From Pyropia haitanensis (taxonomy: Eukaryota; Rhodophyta; Bangiophyceae; Bangiales; Bangiaceae), in assembly GCA_008729055.1 (NCBI GenBank), contig SDUX01000010.1, forward strand, positions 3,425,090 to 3,489,089: 64,000 nt of DNA, read 5' to 3'. The notes below the pieces were generated by a model. That model was not told where the DNA came from. It saw nothing but the letters and a program-made list of their open reading frames with translations, and did not search any database. How positions within the stretch are numbered: the stretch's first letter is position 1; every line of letters begins with the position of its first letter. The position numbers and the translations under genes were made by a program. This document shows, piece by piece, positions 48,621 to 59,831 of this stretch.

Positions 48621-49910
48621 AGCTGCCGCCGCGCCTGCCCAAGAACGTCCTGTGTGTCCCTGACCAGTCGGGTTTGGCTACTGCGTCGATGACGGCCAGG
48701 GAAGAGGTGGGGGGGGGCGGAGCGCGGAGCAAGGCGGTCTGCTCGTGGCAAGGCCGGCGCCACTGTGGGTGTGCAGGTCGCGGCGATCGCGTCCACGAAC
48801 CACGGGCCCACCATCAAACCAACTTGAAGTGGGTCCGCACCGGTATGTCATCATTTTTCATGACCAAGTATTCAAATTTCTCACGTGGTTTCACTCAACT
48901 GCTAAGTTGGATGGATCGGTCCAGCCCTGCGTGTCGCGGCGCGTGTGGCGACGGGGTCCGCCTACCTAGCTGGAGGGGGGCGGTGGGACGGGTTCACGCC
49001 TGTAGGCGCGGGTCCGGGGGGGCACGGGACGCTGCGAGGGCGCTGGTGCACCTCGACGATAGGCAGCGCACGGGTGGGGATACGCGGTCCGCCTTACTCG
49101 TCACGGCGTGGACGCGCGGTCCACCGTGCTGCACGTGGGCGTTGACGCGCGGCCCACCCCCTACCAGCGGTCGCTGGTCGACGACTGATGGGTGGTGAGA
49201 ATGCGAACGTGTTGGTTGCCCGCTGAAGTGCCCAGGTGTCACCGACCGGGCGGCGATGGTAGCGGTGCCTGCCGCCTCGGCGCCGACGAGCGCGTCGGTA
49301 GGAAGTCCCTCCCCGGCTGGCCATGTCTGCTCTCTTCTCACCTGTAACCGCATTGAGCCGTCCACTACCGCCGGCAGAGATAGACGGCAGAGTGTCACGA
49401 AGAGGGCGGCAGCGGCCGCAGGACAGAGGTGGGATAGGTAGAGTGCGCACGGGGGGGACGGGTGGGGGACGGCACTCCCGCCAGCCCCGCTCAGTGTGCC
49501 ACCGCCGTCGACGGCGGCGGCGTCCGCCGGGCTCGATGGCGCGACCGCTCCCGCACGTGGGACCGTCGACGCCTTCCCCTTGTACACCCCCGAGCTGCCG
49601 CTGCTCGCTCCTCTCATCCCCACTCTGGCTGTTGAGGTCCGCGCGGCGGCGCGGGCGGACAGAGGGGGTGGGGGGGGGGTGCGGGAGCTGATCGACGCGG
49701 AGGCGTCGCCACCGCGTCGGCGCCGTTGCGCGGAGCCGTGGCGCGCGCCCGCGGTTTGAAATACGGAGCGTTGTTTGAAACAGCGGGCCCCCCACGGTCC
49801 GCAAGGCAGGGGGCGCGGTGCGGTGCTCCCGCCGCGGTGCGCCCCGCTCGCCTCTCGAGAGCTCTGCACCCCCATTGGATCACCACCGTCGGTCCCGTCT
49901 GGGCGCCCCA
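48621..49910. other. Region without a recognised gene
   Basis: No gene was recognised. Frames here are short or Arg/Pro/Gly-rich. About 48810-48920 is AT-richer. The 3' flank of the coiled-coil gene occupies the left end, and the outer element of the large inverted repeat begins near 49911. Confidence 0.35.
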
Positions 49911-49965
49911 GCCTGAGGCAGGAATCCGCATCTATCCTCAACCTGTGAAATTTCACATGGTGGGG
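49911..49965 (+). repeat. Outer inverted-repeat element, left copy
   Basis: This 55-base stretch matches the reverse complement of 56241-56300 at about 80 percent by eye. It includes CCTGTGAAATTTCACATGGTGGG, in which TGTGAAATTTCACA is a perfect 14-base palindrome. It is followed at once by a G run. Together with its partner it brackets the large palindrome and the CGG-rich blocks. Confidence 0.6.
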
Positions 49966-50849
49966 ATGAGGGGGGGGGGGGGGGGGGGATGGGGTGGCCT
50001 CACAGGCTCCCACGTGGTTCCGTGGGACCCGCCACGTTGTCGCTCTGCGGCGGCGATATTTGCGAGCGCACCATGGACGGGCTACTTGGCATGCAGCTGT
50101 CCTCCAGGGATACGGTGTGCATCCAGACTCTGAGTTGCGGGCTGCACACATGCGGCTGCCCGTCTTGGTGTGGCACGGGGGTACGAACGTACGGTGGGGC
50201 AGCTGCGTCGGGCCGCGGTGGCTGGGGGACAGCTTTGGCGTGCCATCCCGCCTGGGGGGGAGGGTTTCTCCCTGCGGACGCGGCGCGACATTGCGCCGCG
50301 GGGGGGTGCACGGCGCCCAACGGCCGGGGATGGGGCGCCGCGCGGGCGGGGGGAGGCACGCCGCACAGGAGAGGATGATGCTCAGGGCAAGTTCGTTGGT
50401 GCTGTGGCCGCTCGCCATACTCCTCCCCCCGCTACCCTCCGCCCCCCCCCCCTGGCTAACCCCCCCCCCCCACCCCCCGCCCTAAACTGCCTTTTCCCCG
50501 CTCGCGCGGAGCCATGCATCCCCCCCAGATGGGGAGGCACTCCCCACGACCCCCCCCTGCCCGGCGCCAGCCCGGCCGCCGCCACCCCCAACGCACTCTC
50601 CACTCTTCGCAGCCGGCTGCCGCCGACGCCGCGCCCGGCCAACCCCGCCACCCCCGGCGCCAACGCAGACTGCTCCCTCTTCCCTCGGCTGCACCAGGTG
50701 CAACCGGCCCGCCGCCGACTGTCGTCTGCCGCCGCCAGCTGTCCCCATGGCCCCCACAGCCGCCGCCTGCATCCGCACTCCCCCCGCCGTCGCTGCATGC
50801 CGCCCCCGCCGGCTGCCGGCTGTCCCGGCCAGCTTCCCCCGCCGTCGCG
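49966..50849. repeat. GC-rich block outside the left palindrome arm
   Basis: The sequence changes from mixed composition (49990-50380) to C-rich runs and CCG-type repeats (50430-50849) that resemble, in reverse complement, the array outside the right arm. It is several hundred bases shorter than the right counterpart. No frame is credible as protein. Confidence 0.45.
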
Positions 50850-52787
50850 GCGGCCGCCGCCGCCCACTGTCGCTGCTGCCCCCGCCGCCGCCGCCGCCCC
50901 CTCCCGCCGCTGCCCCCGTGGCGGCAGCGGCCGTCGCCGCCCGCCACCGCAGCGCCCGCGGCCGCGGCCGCCGTAGTCATTGCGGCGGCCGCGACGGCCG
51001 CCGCCACCGTTTTCTACCGCCGCTACCTCCGCCACGGCGACGGCTGCCCCCGCCCGTCACGGCTGCCCCTCCCTGCCGACGCTACCATCGTGGCAGAGGC
51101 GGCGGCCGCCGCCGCCGCCCTCCACCGCCACTGCCCCCGTCGGTCAGGGGGGCCTGGCGCCCCTGCCGCGCTCTGCAGCTTCCCCCTCGGACGCCGCCGC
51201 GGCCGGCGGCCGCCGCCGCTGTGGTCAGCCGCCGCCTCTGACGCTGGTTGTGGCGGCCCGGCGCTGCCGCTGCAGGCTGCCGCCCTCCCCCCCCCGGCCT
51301 CCGCCGCGGCCGACTGCCACCGCCGCCGCGGGCTGCCCTCTCTTTCCGTGGCCTCTGCCGCGGCTGGCTGCCGCCGCCGGTTGGGGCGGCCGGCTGCGGC
51401 CGTCGCGTGTTACCGCACCCCCCTCATGCCGTTGCGGACTGCCGTCCCCCCCCCCGTCTGCGCCGCGGCCGGCTGCCGCCGGCGCCACGGGCTGCCGCCC
51501 CCCTCCGTCACCTCGCGGCGAAGGGTTGGACGACAGGGCCAGACGACGATGGTGGGGGGGAAGGGGGAGCGAACGGCAAGACAACTGGTGACCAGCAACC
51601 CAGGTTGAACGAGGAGGTATTTGTGAGTAAAATGTGCAATAGCGATTATTCAACTGAGAACAATACGTATATCCGCGACTTGGCTCACATCTCGTCGCAT
51701 ATCTAGGGAATAAAATGCGCCATTCGTCTCATGTGATAGGCTGTCACACGATCTCAGCCGTGCAACCTGAGGAGTGCATCCCGAATTCATCATTGCTGGA
51801 CAGACGATTACAATACTTGACTTGGCGAGTAACCTGGTCAGCGACTCGCGCGACTGCTGGGACACAAGCGGCTGAAGCGCCGGCGTCCGACGCCGCCCTC
51901 CACCCCGCCCTGTCGCCCGCTTCACCATTCCCCGGCCACCCAGCAGGCCGGGTAGATACACAAGCCTGTTTTACTTGTTCTATTCAGTTTTGAGTGCGCG
52001 CCTACAGGCGTCTGCTAGAGCAGAACCCCCAACGACCCCATAGACAGACACAATGCGTGCACCATCCCTCCTGGGTTCCGCAGCTCAGGGGCGCCTGTGA
52101 CGGTGAAAACACGGCTCGCTATGACATTTTAATCATCCCTGACGGTCTATGCCCCAGCAGAACGCAACCGCTTTTGTAGACAGCGCGGGAAAGCGCCACC
52201 TCTCCGTTTTGGTGTCATCAGTTGCTCAGTATGGGCCTGCATATAGCATCCATGAGAGCTCCACCGTGGGAAGGGCTCATCATTTCTGGGTAACATGATC
52301 ACGCTGAATCTATTGGTGCTCACATCCAGCGTTGTGCACCCGTACCGCCGACAGGAACAGCCACAGACTGGGTGGGTGAAGCGTTATAATCGCCTCCTCC
52401 GAGCGGTTGTGAGCACTATGGATCTACTTTTTGCACTGAACACTGAGGGAAAGGTATCTGGTGGCTACGGTGGCGTAAAAACGCAAAGAAAGCACACTGA
52501 AGCCCGCACATTGGCGACTAACTGACTGCTGCGCGGTTGCAGGCACTATGGCGCAGCTGGACGCGCCCAGAGTGTCGGTGAGAGTGAAAAAAGCAGTGGA
52601 GATAACTGGCTACACTGTCTAGATCTGACAGATGTAGGTTTTAGTGCATGAGAGCACTGTGGGGCATTGGACGGCCAGTCGAGGCGACCTGCCCAGAATG
52701 GTCATTTTGGGGGTCCATATGACCCACTTCCCATCGTTTGCGACGCTTTCTGAGCACATACTCGTGCTCAACGTCATCGTTTTAGTC
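50850..52787 (+). repeat. Left arm of a large palindrome
   Basis: Reverse-complement identity with 52941-54880 holds position by position (left plus right coordinate is 105729 or 105730). From about 50870 to 52404 I see only one difference, one extra C/G in a homopolymer at 51446-51455. From 52405 to 52500 and 52665 to 52787 the arms differ at roughly a fifth to a quarter of positions. Between those, 52500-52525 and 52541-52664 are again nearly identical. The outer half is CCG-rich. The inner part, 51600-52787, is balanced in composition and holds short ATG frames at 51715-51993 and 52295-52525. No transposase, reverse transcriptase or recombinase motif is recognised. Confidence 0.9.
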
Positions 52788-52940
52788 TACGGCGAGTGCT
52801 TCAGAAAAGTTTGTTGAGTGGTCCTTGACTCGTGTTGCACTCGGTCACAGCGCCTGATGCACTCCTGGGTGCCAGGCGCCATACACCGCTACAACGCGTT
52901 TCAGCAAGATATGCAAAATTTTTTCGACCTGGCCTCAGAT
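52788..52940. other. Unpaired centre of the large palindrome
   Basis: About 153 bases between the arms have no inverted partner. They have balanced composition and no coding frame. In a cruciform or hairpin transcript this would be the loop. Each arm bears a small hairpin (stem GAGCAC/GTGCTC) just outside this centre. Confidence 0.7.
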
Positions 52941-54880
52941 GACTAAAACGATGACGCTGAGCACGCTCATGTGCTCAGAAAGTGTAGCAGACGTCGGCAA
53001 GTGCGTCTTTCATGCCCCCAAAGTGGTCACTCTGAGCAGGTCTCCTCGACAGGCAGTCCAACGCCCCACAGTGCTCTCATGCACTAAAACCTACATCTGT
53101 CAGATCTAGACAGTGTAGCCAGTTACCTTCACTGCTTTTTTCACTCTCACCGACACTCTGGGCGCGTCCAGCTGCGCCATAGTGCCCACCACCCCATCTG
53201 CAGTCAGTTAGTCGCCAATGTGCGGGCTCCAGTGTCCTTTTTTGCATTATTACGGCACCATAGCCACCAGGTACCTTTGTATTCAGGGTTCACTAAAAAA
53301 AGAAGACCCATAACGGTCACAATCGCTCGGAGGAGGCGATTATAACGCTTCACCCACCCAGTCTGTGGCTGTTCCTGTCGGCGGTACGGGTGCACAACGC
53401 TGGATGTGAGCACCAATAGATTCAGCGTGATCATGTTACCCAGAAATGATGAGCCCTTCCCACGGTGGAGCTCTCATGGATGCTATATGCAGGCCCATAC
53501 TGAGCAACTGATGACACCAAAACGGAGAGGTGGCGCTTTCCCGCGCTGTCTACAAAAGCGGTTGCGTTCTGCTGGGGCATAGACCGTCAGGGATGATTAA
53601 AATGTCATAGCGAGCCGTGTTTTCACCGTCACAGGCGCCCCTGAGCTGCGGAACCCAGGAGGGATGGTGCACGCATTGTGTCTGTCTATGGGGTCGTTGG
53701 GGGTTCTGCTCTAGCAGACGCCTGTAGGCGCGCACTCAAAACTGAATAGAACAAGTAAAACAGGCTTGTGTATCTACCCGGCCTGCTGGGTGGCCGGGGA
53801 ATGGTGAAGCGGGCGACAGGGCGGGGTGGAGGGCGGCGTCGGACGCCGGCGCTTCAGCCGCTTGTGTCCCAGCAGTCGCGCGAGTCGCTGACCAGGTTAC
53901 TCGCCAAGTCAAGTATTGTAATCGTCTGTCCAGCAATGATGAATTCGGGATGCACTCCTCAGGTTGCACGGCTGAGATCGTGTGACAGCCTATCACATGA
54001 GACGAATGGCGCATTTTATTCCCTAGATATGCGACGAGATGTGAGCCAAGTCGCGGATATACGTATTGTTCTCAGTTGAATAATCGCTATTGCACATTTT
54101 ACTCACAAATACCTCCTCGTTCAACCTGGGTTGCTGGTCACCAGTTGTCTTGCCGTTCGCTCCCCCTTCCCCCCCACCATCGTCGTCTGGCCCTGTCGTC
54201 CAACCCTTCGCCGCGAGGTGACGGAGGGGGGCGGCAGCCCGTGGCGCCGGCGGCAGCCGGCCGCGGCGCAGACGGGGGGGGGGGACGGCAGTCCGCAACG
54301 GCATGAGGGGGGTGCGGTAACACGCGACGGCCGCAGCCGGCCGCCCCAACCGGCGGCGGCAGCCAGCCGCGGCAGAGGCCACGGAAAGAGAGGGCAGCCC
54401 GCGGCGGCGGTGGCAGTCGGCCGCGGCGGAGGCCGGGGGGGGGAGGGCGGCAGCCTGCAGCGGCAGCGCCGGGCCGCCACAACCAGCGTCAGAGGCGGCG
54501 GCTGACCACAGCGGCGGCGGCCGCCGGCCGCGGCGGCGTCCGAGGGGGAAGCTGCAGAGCGCGGCAGGGGCGCCAGGCCCCCCTGACCGACGGGGGCAGT
54601 GGCGGTGGAGGGCGGCGGCGGCGGCCGCCGCCTCTGCCACGATGGTAGCGTCGGCAGGGAGGGGCAGCCGTGACGGGCGGGGGCAGCCGTCGCCGTGGCG
54701 GAGGTAGCGGCGGTAGAAAACGGTGGCGGCGGCCGTCGCGGCCGCCGCAATGACTACGGCGGCCGCGGCCGCGGGCGCTGCGGTGGCGGGCGGCGACGGC
54801 CGCTGCCGCCACGGGGGCAGCGGCGGGAGGGGGCGGCGGCGGCGGCGGGGGCAGCAGCGACAGTGGGCGGCGGCGGCGGC
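52941..54880 (-). repeat. Right arm of a large palindrome
   Basis: This is the inverted partner of 50850-52787 and carries the same short frames on the opposite strand (53736-54014 and 53204-53434). The 76-codon frame at 53204-53434 differs from its left partner in the inner half but keeps the same length, with two compensating single-base indels. The arm runs outward into a longer CGG-rich array than the left side. Confidence 0.9.
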
Positions 54881-56020
54881 CACGACGACGGGGACAGAGG
54901 TGGCAGGTGGCCGCGGCGGCCGCTGCCGCGATGGCGGCGGCGGCAGAGGGCGGCAGCGGCCACGGGGGCAGCGGTGGCAGGCGGCGGCGGCCGCTGCCGC
55001 GCAGACGCAGCGGTGGCGGGTGGCGGCCGCCGCATGGGCTGCGGTAGTGAGAAGCGGCCGCCGCCGCCGCCGCGGGGGCAGCGGTGGCGGGGGGCGGCGG
55101 TGGCCGCCGCCGCCACGCCCGCGATGGTGGCGGCCGCAGCGACCGCGCCGCGGCCGCGGGGGAAGCGAAGGCGGGCGGTAGCGGCCGCTACCGCGGCGGG
55201 CGAAGCGGCCGCTGAGGGCGGCGGCGGCGGCCGGTGCCGCCGCGGCGGGCGTGGCGGCGTCGGCGGCCGCGGGCGGCGGCGGGCGGCAGTGGTGGCGGCG
55301 GGGCCAGCGATGGCAGCGGCGGCGGGGGGCGACAGCGGCGGCCGGCGCCGCTATGGCGGGCGCAGCGGCGGCGACCGACAGCGGCGGCGGCCGGCGCCGC
55401 CGCCGCGGGAGCAGTGGCAGAGGCCGGCGGCGGCGGCAGCCGGCGCCGCCACGGCGGGGGCAGCGGCGGCGGCCGGCGGGGGCAGCGGCGGCGGCCGGCG
55501 GCGGCAGCGGCGGCAGCCACCGCGGCGGCGGAGAAGCAGGGGTAGCGGCGGCGGGGAGGGGCGGCGGCGGCGGCCCCCGCCGCCGCGGGAGCAGCGGCGG
55601 CCGCCGCCACCGCCGCGGGAGCAGCGGCGGCACGGAGCGGCGGCGGCAGCCAGCGCCGCCGCGGCGGCGGCGGCGGCGGCGGGCGGCGTGGGCAGCGACG
55701 GCGGCCGCAGCGGCGGCGGCGGGGCGGCAAGAGCAGCGGCGGAGGGGGGCGGCGGCGGCAGCCGGCGCGGCCGCGGCGGGGGCAGCGGCGGCGGTCGGCC
55801 GAGCCAGCGACCGCAGCCGCCGCAGCGGCAGGGGCAGCGGGGGCAGCGTCGGCGGGGGGCGGCGGCGGCGGTCGCCGCTGCCGCGGCGGGGGCACCGGTC
55901 ACGGGGGCAGCCGTGACGGGGAGCGCTCGCGCCGACCGCGACGGCGACCGCGGCGGCGGGGGCAGCGGTTGCGGGTGGCGGTGGCTGCCGCGGCCGCCGC
56001 GGGGGGGCAGCGGCGATATG
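54881..56020. repeat. CGG-rich minisatellite-like array outside the right arm
   Basis: Over one kilobase is built from variants of GGGGGCAGCGGCGGCGGC and CGGCCGGCGCCGCC units. A minus frame stays open for 668 codons through it and the right arm, but the translation is only Pro/Ala/Arg runs, so I do not call a protein. The left side has a similar but shorter block, so the two sides have expanded or contracted unequally. Confidence 0.65.
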
Positions 56021-56240
56021 GGGCTGCACATGGCGCGCTCTTTCGCGGACGCACTGTCATCGCGGCCCAGAGGGCCACATGGCGCGATTTTCGCGGACGC
56101 ACTGTAGTCGAACTGGGCGCGGCTAGAATCGTTCGTTCGAAGTGACCTTGGGTGTGCTACTTTCTTGTTTTGTGCTGCGCTCTCAGGCGCCGTCGCGGGT
56201 GCGCGGCCGTGCTGAGGAGCGCTGAGGAGCCAGCATCCAG

Positions 56241-56300
56241 CCCACCATGTGAAAATTTCACAGGGTGGACCTACATCTCGTTTCCTGTATGCCCAGCCTC
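56241..56300 (-). repeat. Outer inverted-repeat element, right copy
   Basis: This is the inverted partner of 49911-49965, including CCCACCATGTGAAAATTTCA. It lies about 580 bases upstream of the alpha-tubulin start, so it could also contribute to that gene's promoter region. Confidence 0.6.
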
Positions 56301-56878
56301 GGTTTCCGACCGCCGCCGCGGGAAAGAGAGGCCCCCCCCCTCCACAGCGGTCCCGTTGGGGGGGGCGTGCTGGCTCGCAGTGCGCGGCAGGCCGCGCCGC
56401 GGCGGGCCACACCCCCGACCCCCCCGCCGTTGGTCGCTGCGGCGGGGGGCTTGGCGCGCCCGCCGTCGGGGGTCCGTGCTCGACGCCGGCGGGCCGGCCG
56501 GCAGGGGCGCCGCGGCTCCCCCCCCTCCTCTCCCCACGCGCGCGCCTGCCGTCGTGCGCCGCCGCCGCCGACCACGGGCCGCGACGCCACGCCACCCCCT
56601 CCACTAGCTACCCGCGGTCGCGTGCGTTGGGGGTGCCGGTTGGGCGCGGGAGCGGCTGGCGACGAGCGCTGCCACCCGCCCACGTGCGCCCCCGTGCGCG
56701 CCCCCGCGGCCGCTCTCACCGACGTCTGCATCGCGTACCAATCCGACGCACCACCCCCTCCTGCGCCCCCCCCTCCTGCGTCCCCTCTTCCCCACCTCTC
56801 CGCAACTCCCCCCCTGTCCACGGCCGCCGCCCTTCCCTTGTTTCATTCTCCCCCCACCCCTCCCTTCTGCCCGGCACC

Positions 56879-58246
56879 ATGAGGGAGGTCATTTCCCTGC
56901 ACCTGGGACAGGCGGGTGTCCAGGTGGGCAACGCCTGCTGGGAGCTCTATTGCCTAGAGCACGACATTGCGCCCGACGGGACGCTCAACGCTTCGGCGGC
57001 CGCGGCCGCGCCGTCGGTCCCCATTGGCTCCGCCGCGTTCAACACCTTTTTCGCCGAGACGGGCCAAAAGGACAACAAGTACGTGCCGCGGGCGCTCTTC
57101 CTCGACCTTGAGCCGACGGTCATTGATGAGGTGCGGACGGGGCCGTATCGGCAGCTGTACCACTCAGGCAACCTCATCAGCGGCAAGGAGGACGCGGCCA
57201 ACAATTACGCGAGGGGGCACTACACGGTAGGCAAGGAGATTCTGGAGAAGGCGCTGGATCGGATCCGCAAGCTCGCCGACAACTGCAGCGGCCTGCAGGG
57301 CTTCCTCGTCTTTAACGCGGTGGGCGGCGGGACGGGCTCGGGGCTGGGCTCCCTTCTGCTGGAGCGCCTGTCGGTCGACTATGGCAAGAAGTCCAAACTG
57401 GCCTTTACGGTGTACCCCTCCCCGCAGGTGTCGACCGCCGTCGTGGAGCCGTACAATTCGGTGCTGTCGACGCACGCGCTGCTCGAGCACACGGACGTGG
57501 CGGTGATGCTGGACAACGAGGCGATTTACGACATCTGCAAGAACCGCCTGGGCATCCAGCGCCCCACGTACGGCAACCTCAACCGGCTGATCGCGCAGGT
57601 GGTGTCGTCGCTGACCGCGTCGCTCCGCTTCGAGGGCGCCCTCAACGTGGACATCAACGAGTTCCAGACCAACCTCGTACCCTACCCACGCATCCACTTC
57701 ATGCTTTCCTCCTACTCGCCAGTCATCTCTTCGGATAAGGCGCACCACGAGTCGCTGTCTGTGTCGGAGATCACGTCAAGCGCGTTTGAGCCGGCCAACA
57801 TGATGGCCAAGTGCAACCCTAACATTGGCAAGTACATGAGCTGCTGCCTCATGTACCGCGGGGACATTGTGCCCAAGGATGTCAACGCGGCGGTGGCGGC
57901 CATCAAGACGCGCAAGAGCATCCAGTTTGTGGACTGGTGCCCGACAGGCTTCAAGTGTGGGATCAACAACCAGCCGCCGACGGTGGTGCCCGGCGGGGAC
58001 CTTGCCTCGGTCAACCGGGCGGTGTGCATGATCAGTAACAGCACGGCGATTGCCGAGGTGTTTGGCCGCATCGACGCCAAGTTTGACCTCCTGTACAGCA
58101 AGCGTGCGTTTGTGCACTGGTACGTGGGAGAGGGGCTGGAGGAGGGGGAGTTCTCCGAGGCGCGCGAGGACCTCGCGGCGCTCGAGCAGGACTACCGCGA
58201 GGTGGGGATGGAGTCGGCCGACGCGGACGCGGAGGAGGAGTACTAG
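56879..58246 (+). CDS. TUBA: Alpha-tubulin
   Basis: Alpha-tubulin pairs with beta-tubulin to form microtubules. ATG 56879 begins [20 protein letters not shown], diagnostic for alpha rather than beta (which starts MREIVH). The frame is 455 residues, close to the usual 450, without introns. GTP-binding landmarks are the T4 loop [38 protein letters not shown] (T3 and beyond) and the catalytic-loop Glu in [20 protein letters not shown], which hydrolyses GTP on beta-tubulin. The C-terminal tail ends EEEY, so a detyrosination site is present. The loop between H1 and S2 (residues 35-52) is Ala/Ser/Pro-rich, has no lysine and is slightly longer than usual, so the acetylated Lys40 is absent. Upstream 56500-56878 is C/T-rich. 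Codon use is strongly biased to C or G ends, as expected of a highly expressed gene. Confidence 0.97.
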
Positions 58247-59831
58247 GTTGGCAGTGACGGTGACTGCGACTGCGGCAACGGCAGCGGGGTTGGTGGCGGC
58301 ACCGGCAACCGCGTCAGCAGCCGCGACAGTGGCGATGACTGCGGCGATGGGCACCGGCACCGGCGGTGGGAACGACCGCGCTGGCGCTCGCGAGCGGCAG
58401 TGGCTGCGGGCGGGTTGGGTGGAAGCGGCGAGGAGGTCGGACTGGGTTTGAATTGAGGCGGGTGTGGGCTTGGTGTGAGCTGTCGGGGGCGTTTTGTTGA
58501 GACGGGGGGCATGGGTTGAGCCGGTGTGACGTTTGGGAGGGGAGGGGTTGTGGGCGTCGGGCGGGCATGTTGAGGTGCAGAGCCGAGCGTGGCAGTGGGT
58601 TTGCATTGTGTGTGATACTTCACTCTCACTGGTATGTTTTTCCGTGTTTACTTGTTGCTCTGCTGGGAGGGGGTCGTGCGTTTGCGGAGCGCCGCGGTCA
58701 AGCAGACGAGGTGTCTTTGCGGTCTTTGTTGGTTGGTCCGCGTGCAGCGCGGCGCTTCCGTTGTGGTCTCCTCAGCGGTTGCAGTCTTGGGGGTGAGCCT
58801 ACTCCGCCTGCCGAGCCCGCGCAGCCGCGAGCGGGCAACGCGGTCGCGAGGAGGACGACCGCGCCGCCCTCTTATTGAGGTTGGGTACAGTCTTTCTCCA
58901 TTGCTGTGACATCCTTTCTTGGGCACGGTGTCTAATAACCAATGTAGGTCGACCGACGTTTCCGATACGATCATCGCATGTGTCAGCATTCGATCGTCTT
59001 CACCGACCAATGAGAAAGCGAAATCGTGCTGCGGTCGGCGGGCTTACGGTCGCCGCAAAGGGTGCCCAACAATGGAGAAAGACTGTATAGGAACTGGAGC
59101 CGTCATTGCATTGTCAAGATTTCATGTTCCAAGGATGTTCGATATTGTGTCCTCTCGAGATGGAATTATTTCCTCATCCGCGCTGTACCGACCCCCAGCG
59201 CGCCAGGAAAACAGTGCGCAGCCGTTGCATGCCCAACCCCTCCCCTCCCTCAACCCCACATGCGGCTGCGACCGCGCGGTGGTGGCTCCGCCGGGACGCC
59301 ACCCCGCCGGGCGACACTCTGGCTTCGCGGACGTGGGCGCAGCGTGGCGCCTCCCCCGCTGCGCCGCGTTCAACCCCACTGCCCGATTGCCTTGGCAGAG
59401 CACAGCTGCTTCGTGTGGTGCCCCCTGTGAGTATCTGCCCCCTGTTGTCGCACACGCAGGAGCCTGCCGTGACGACCACCCTCCGCTGCCACCGCGCCCT
59501 GTCCGTGTCCCGCCCGCCCCCGCGGCCTGCGGGAGCCCTGTCCACGTGCCGCCCTGATGGTACGCCGCGGCTCCTTGCCTCGTTTGTTTTCGAGAGCCGG
59601 GGTGGCCTTTGGCGCGCCGCACCCCATGACGGCCCCTGATGCAGCCGCTGCGCACCGACCGACTTTGTACATCGCCGCTGGTGGCTGCTCGCTGGAGCGT
59701 TCTGTGCCCAGGTCCTCTAACTTGTGTGCCCCTTTTTCTCTCCCCCTCTCCTGCGGCTGTGACACTCGGGGGTCGTGTTTTTTGTTGCTCTGCTTGGGTG
59801 GGGCCGGGCCACTGCGGCGGGCACGGAACAG
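58247..59831. other. Intergenic region between alpha-tubulin and centrin
   Basis: The first 600 bases after the tubulin stop are G/T-rich on the plus strand, consistent with a 3' untranslated region. About 58880-59130 is AT-richer, with CCAAT at 58939-58943 and 59007-59011, and is the likely centrin promoter. A good donor-like sequence (CCCCCT|GTGAGTAT near 59426) and a T-rich tract at 59725-59790 before the centrin acceptor suggest an upstream exon or 5' untranslated intron that I could not place in frame. Confidence 0.4.

Follow-up and report, generated by a model that had tools for sequence, protein, structure and literature searches.

In Foldback elements the long inverted repeats reach the ends of the element, and the large palindromes of Y chromosomes are chromosome segments, not dispersed transposons. 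Gene conversion from arm to arm is reported for the Y-chromosome palindromes (PMC3403216), and such conversion between the arms of a large palindrome is what they have in common with the locus described here. Among transposons, Galileo is a member of the P superfamily in Drosophila with 7-bp target duplications. According to its description (PMC2775673), the arms of GalileoN-1 and of GalileoN-2 are more than 99% identical within each and about 7% apart between the two, and those of GalileoN-4 and -5 are about 6% apart within a copy because recombination between copies produced them. In the Kyakuja-Dileera-Zisupton (KDZ) group, Zisupton makes 8-bp duplications, and two Kyakuja families make duplications of 7 bp and lack terminal inverted repeats (PMC12730594). 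The literature searched by title and start of abstract describes no palindrome in a Zisupton or KDZ element.

The element analysed here, called family A, is very probably a non-autonomous transposon moved by a KDZ transposase, in which the right arm of a palindrome was replaced by the left, the arms are kept alike by conversion and crossovers invert the centre. It resembles Galileo in that the long inverted arms of each copy are similar to one another, whereas Galileo belongs to the P superfamily, makes 7-bp duplications and has arms that are its termini (PMC2775673). With Zisupton and Dileera it shares 8-bp duplications and terminal inverted repeats; a candidate KDZ-like transposase is encoded by an element with the ends of a chimeric relative of A, family B. 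Unlike them, A is non-autonomous, has an internal 4-kb inverted repeat and a GGC-rich tail, and carries unlike terminal four bases at its two ends (GAGG vs CATA/CATG). The two Kyakuja families differ from both A and B by their 7-bp duplication without terminal inverted repeats, against 8 bp with them. What is new here is a probable KDZ-type element whose inverted repeat is internal, together with decayed relatives for comparison and copies resembling states before and after conversion; arms alike within a copy were already known from Galileo.

The window, that is, the whole stretch of 64,000 nucleotides analysed, corresponds to C4:3425090-3489089 of a 52.9-Mb genome in 136 contigs. It contains a complete family A element of 6,377 bases on the forward strand (49915-56291), which starts with GAGGCAGGAATCC, ends with GTTTCCTGTATG and has a perfect 8-bp target-site duplication, CCCAGCCT, on both flanks (49907-49914 and 56292-56299). 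The terminal inverted repeats lie at 49915-49964 on the forward strand (GAGGCAGGAATCC...TGTGAAATTTCACATGGTGGGG) and at 56241-56291 on the reverse strand; in family A they are imperfect and about 50 bp long, and in family B and a 23.5-kb element with B-type ends they measure 50-70 bp. The palindrome described in the sequence-only reading is not the entire unit; it is enclosed in the repeat 49915-56291, with 938 bases of the element on the left and 1,415 on the right outside the identical runs. Because the arms stop short of the ends, A is not a classical Foldback element. A GGC-rich repetitive tail, with a counterpart of lower identity in family B, extends on the forward strand from 54877 to 56015.

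The palindrome was verified base by base in the assembled sequence. The left arm (50837-52787, forward) and the right arm (52941-54893, reverse) surround a centre of 153 bases (52788-52940), so that the arms, centre length and mosaic proposed from the letters hold. Two runs are identical between the arms, one of 593 bases (50853-51445 = 54285-54877) and one of 960 (51446-52405 = 53324-54283). They are separated by one extra base in a C/G run at 51445, the sole arm difference across 50853-52405, where the earlier claim of outer arms identical save one such base is confirmed. Outside the limit of identity at 50853, the arm margin 50842-50852 has three substitutions. The inner ~0.4 kb of the window's arms is a mosaic. 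Block 52405-52500 differs by 20 substitutions and 2 gap columns and block 52665-52787 by 21 substitutions and 4 gap columns, both divergent as previously described, and 52501-52529 shows no difference; block 52541-52664, which had been taken as identical, carries 3 substitutions.

Searching the genome with the left arm gave at least about 20 close-match places (40 of 1,038 candidates scored). The other copies that the sequence-only reading had suggested looking for thus exist: 20 loci, the window's own included, were examined as 10-kb stretches and comprise nine family A copies (L009, L010, L011, L012, L018, L021, L023, L025 and L028, which is the window) and 11 of family B. L009 and L011 are half copies that end at window 52736 and 53045, near the centre. 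In L010 the left arm is truncated and the centre holds a nested insertion, hAT-like by its ends as read by eye. Insertions are apparently present in L015 and L024 as well. The latter (C3:2109540-2120174) is a B copy split by a 10.6-kb stretch, with the query overlapping by 8 bases at the join, and a KDZ-like match is located in a 1,552-residue open frame within the interrupting stretch.

Wherever the fetched stretch includes both ends, in five of five A copies and nine of nine B copies, the 8-bp target duplications are perfect, and those of the 14 copies are all distinct. Among the other relatives the duplications are perfect in L030 and L031 and match at 7 of 8 bases in L029. For L025 the presumed right end is located 5.7 kb further on, and the flank there has no matching target duplication. 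Families A and B have similar tips, GAGG[C/T]AG at the left end and CAT[A/G][C/T]AG at the right, and the own ends of family B are GAGGTAGTATTCC and GACGTACTACATG.

B-type ends also delimit a giant element of 23,460 bases (C4:926668-950128) with the perfect duplication GCGAGAGC. One of its frames, of 1,322 residues, matches KDZ with E 5e-4 and 20.2 bits against a Pfam cut-off of 26.6; the element also encodes a PIF1-like helicase (E 1e-15), and a frame of 995 residues has no Pfam match. Residues 500-1322 of the KDZ-like frame matched seven proteins, including one at 100% identity (7,997 candidates scored), and in the resulting set KDZ is found at E <= 0.01 in five of the eight aligned sequences, query included, with a best value of 1.4e-4. 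On these sequence comparisons, A and B are most likely non-autonomous elements of KDZ type. The earlier description as a non-autonomous, foldback-like element is upheld. The suggestion of an undescribed type lacking a transposase is not, given the ends that B has in common with this element encoding a KDZ-like protein and the Galileo precedent for alike arms (PMC2775673). The left end of A has 18 strong matches, every one of them within the fetched A and B copies (3 short matches were left aside). Among these matches there is no coding element with A-type ends, and the partner of A is for this reason an inferred one.

A different superfamily with 8-bp duplications, such as hAT, could be the mover, with the KDZ gene as cargo or as a nested insertion. 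This seems unlikely. The KDZ score is weak and the hAT dimerisation domain is matched 12 times in the genome, once inside a relative (L035), but the frame in L035 interrupts element sequence which continues on both its sides; it is therefore nested and was rejected as partner. KDZ-like proteins are moreover common in the genome, the last 330 residues of the frame having 38 matches, itself included. Two further candidates were set aside. A 700-residue DDE_1-like frame in L031 (C6:1349700-1358300; Pfam E 0.0017, under the cut-off) has its own terminal repeats, as judged by eye, inside a B relative, and L029 contains a frame recognised by eye as Copia-like. A P-type transposase gave no Pfam match in the three giant-element frames scanned. 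KDZ-like frames also occur 2.5-3.5 kb from diverged arm matches at C93:52475-59277, C6:1643428-1650230 and C2:1538127-1542990, possibly autonomous relatives with the same core.

In the copies compared, the arms of family A evolve in concert. They were compared over 50839-52404 in six copies (L028, L012, L018, L021, L023 and L025; L010 omitted, gap columns skipped). Of about 1,548 bases in each of these copies, 0, 9, 1, 2, 12 and 2 differ between the arms, against a mean distance of 2.7% between arms of different copies. In 86 columns that vary among copies the two arms agree in all six, and in 25 columns they disagree in at least one. Out of 720 possible pairings of left with right arms, two, the true one included, reach a mean as low as that observed; L021 and L023 are almost interchangeable in this test. 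Variants private to one copy occur in both of its arms in 59 cases and in a single arm in 10. The arms of A thus appear to be kept alike by copying of sequence from arm to arm within the copy.

Homogenisation by exchange between element copies, and not within a copy, is judged quite improbable. It would agree with the 2.2 kb that A and B have in common at 97-99.5% and with the several sequence types that circulate in 52100-52404, but the private variants found in both arms of a copy are absent from the other five copies compared, and a tract in L021 is that of its own other arm. Over 6.4 kb, 31 substitutions separate L021 from L023, and 29 of them lie within a 265-bp tract of the right arm (53228-53492), where the right arm of L021 equals its left. 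This clustering in one tract indicates gene conversion, in line with the conversion tracts proposed from the window's mosaic. Similarly, 35 of the 71 substitutions between L012 and L018 are found within 53064-53323, over which the arms of L018 agree in the zones measured. These sister copies look like an element first without and then with a single conversion tract a few hundred bases long.

The inner arms include a segment of two sequence types, P and Q, either of which occupies either arm in different copies; the window has P in its left arm (52405-52500, forward) and Q in its right (53228-53323, reverse). The left/right state is P/Q in L028 and L012, Q/P in L023 and L010, P/P in L018 and Q/Q in L021 and L025. 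The centre is likewise found in either orientation relative to the flanks, namely that of the window in L028, L012, L018 and L025, and the reverse in L009, L010, L011, L021 and L023. This distribution, four against five of the nine copies, indicates crossovers between the arms. In the four A copies with distinct P and Q the order tracks the orientation of the centre, as expected if crossovers fall in the outer arms. Among the single-arm copies, the P/Q segment of L009 agrees with its centre orientation and that of L011 disagrees. The centres of all 11 B copies match best in the window orientation (76%). A weaker parallel to this inversion within the element is given by the opposed middles of GalileoN-4 and -5, which concern two copies at the breakpoints of a chromosomal inversion (PMC2775673).

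Ten of the 11 family B copies have arms of about 69% identity over the entire palindrome; the eleventh, L015, gave a partial alignment only (76%). In the six A copies, by contrast, the arms are near-identical up to an inner limit that varies by copy, and in L010 unlike inner arms bring the identity down to 92.5% over 1,635 columns. The right-arm core of B is widespread, with 85-100% identity in the 40 scored of 211 candidate places. It also forms the right arm of L029, L030, L031 and L035 (88-99%, save one 48-base piece), and the left arms of these four, where present, match that of B piecewise at 57-82%. The relatives therefore show an asymmetry of their own, with a conserved right arm and a left arm that matches B only piecewise. 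Of the copies compared, only those of family A carry a left-arm copy in the right-arm position. From the left end through the left arm, A and B are 97-99.5% identical up to about 52115, where identity drops sharply to 57-91%, and on this pattern B is a chimera with 2.2 kb in common with A by recent transfer. For this reason B alone is no proof that the left arm of A was the donor; replacement of the right arm in A is suggested by the type of right arm that the other relatives have in common.

Within the B copy L019, the arm differences comprise 156 transitions and 159 transversions, with no transition excess, and deamination was rejected as the source of the divergence. The mismatches between its arms show no clear three-base periodicity, and Pfam matches are absent from the 10 frames scanned of the 26 open frames overlapping 51550-54200; a coding function of the core was discarded on these two grounds. 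Rfam at gathering scores gave no match in 49000-57000.

According to the preferred reading, a KDZ-group transposase would move family A in trans. The core would be an old inverted repeat whose arms are about a quarter or more apart in the relatives measured, and in family A a left-arm copy would have replaced the right arm and produced a near-perfect 4-kb palindrome. Since then the two arms of a copy have been kept alike by recurrent gene conversion, with recombination between these arms converting them when resolved as non-crossovers and inverting the centre when resolved as crossovers. The trigger would probably be breaks or stalled replication forks at the extruded palindrome. Of these points, the sequence comparisons show the transposon structure with its target duplications, the concerted arms, the conversion tracts and the inverted centres; the KDZ protein as mover of A, the direction and timing of the founding replacement and the trigger are inferred. 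The half copies L009 and L011, broken near the centre, fit breakage there, as two cases.

It is very unlikely that the palindrome instead had one recent origin, by fold-back synthesis or inverted duplication, and is too young to have diverged, with no ongoing conversion. Five of the six A copies compared have their outer limit at 50853, and L025 has it near there, as such an origin would leave it. However, the arms of A have diverged between copies, with variants mostly the same in both arms, the inner limits vary by copy, fresh tracts are seen in two sister pairs, and the 59:10 ratio of private variants is unfavourable to it. An artefact of assembly or sequencing that created one arm or polished it into likeness is scarcely credible, given that the flanks on the two sides are unique and carry matching 8-bp duplications, that mosaic differences remain between the arms and that there are five further whole-palindrome A copies, four of them with matching duplications. 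The palindrome of the window is real, and the earlier preference for a true inverted repeat over a sequencing hairpin was correct.

A bolder version of the preferred reading is doubtful. Family A would be a self-renewing palindrome, with one arm regularly rewritten from the other and the centre flipped through transposition or through break repair at the extruded centre, so that a near-perfect hairpin is actively maintained while the arms of the relatives measured decayed. If true, the hairpin may give the family an advantage, either in DNA form or in that of a double-stranded transcript, and favour its persistence. The decayed arms of B, the renewed arms of A and the before/after-like sisters are found in one genome, which makes arm conversion, tract length and the link to arm identity measurable. 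These copies suggest that a palindrome in a mobile element can be near-perfect without being young.

Matches of 764 bases and 76% identity to window 51351-52108 are also found on seven small contigs (C128, C105, C77, C46, C33, C94 and C63); with equal or near-equal scores, they possibly represent one repeated locus. Next to the window element, an alpha-tubulin-like gene (Pfam Tubulin and Tubulin_C, alpha judged by eye) is located at 56879-58249. It begins 580 bases past the right target duplication, and the element is thus inserted in its upstream region.
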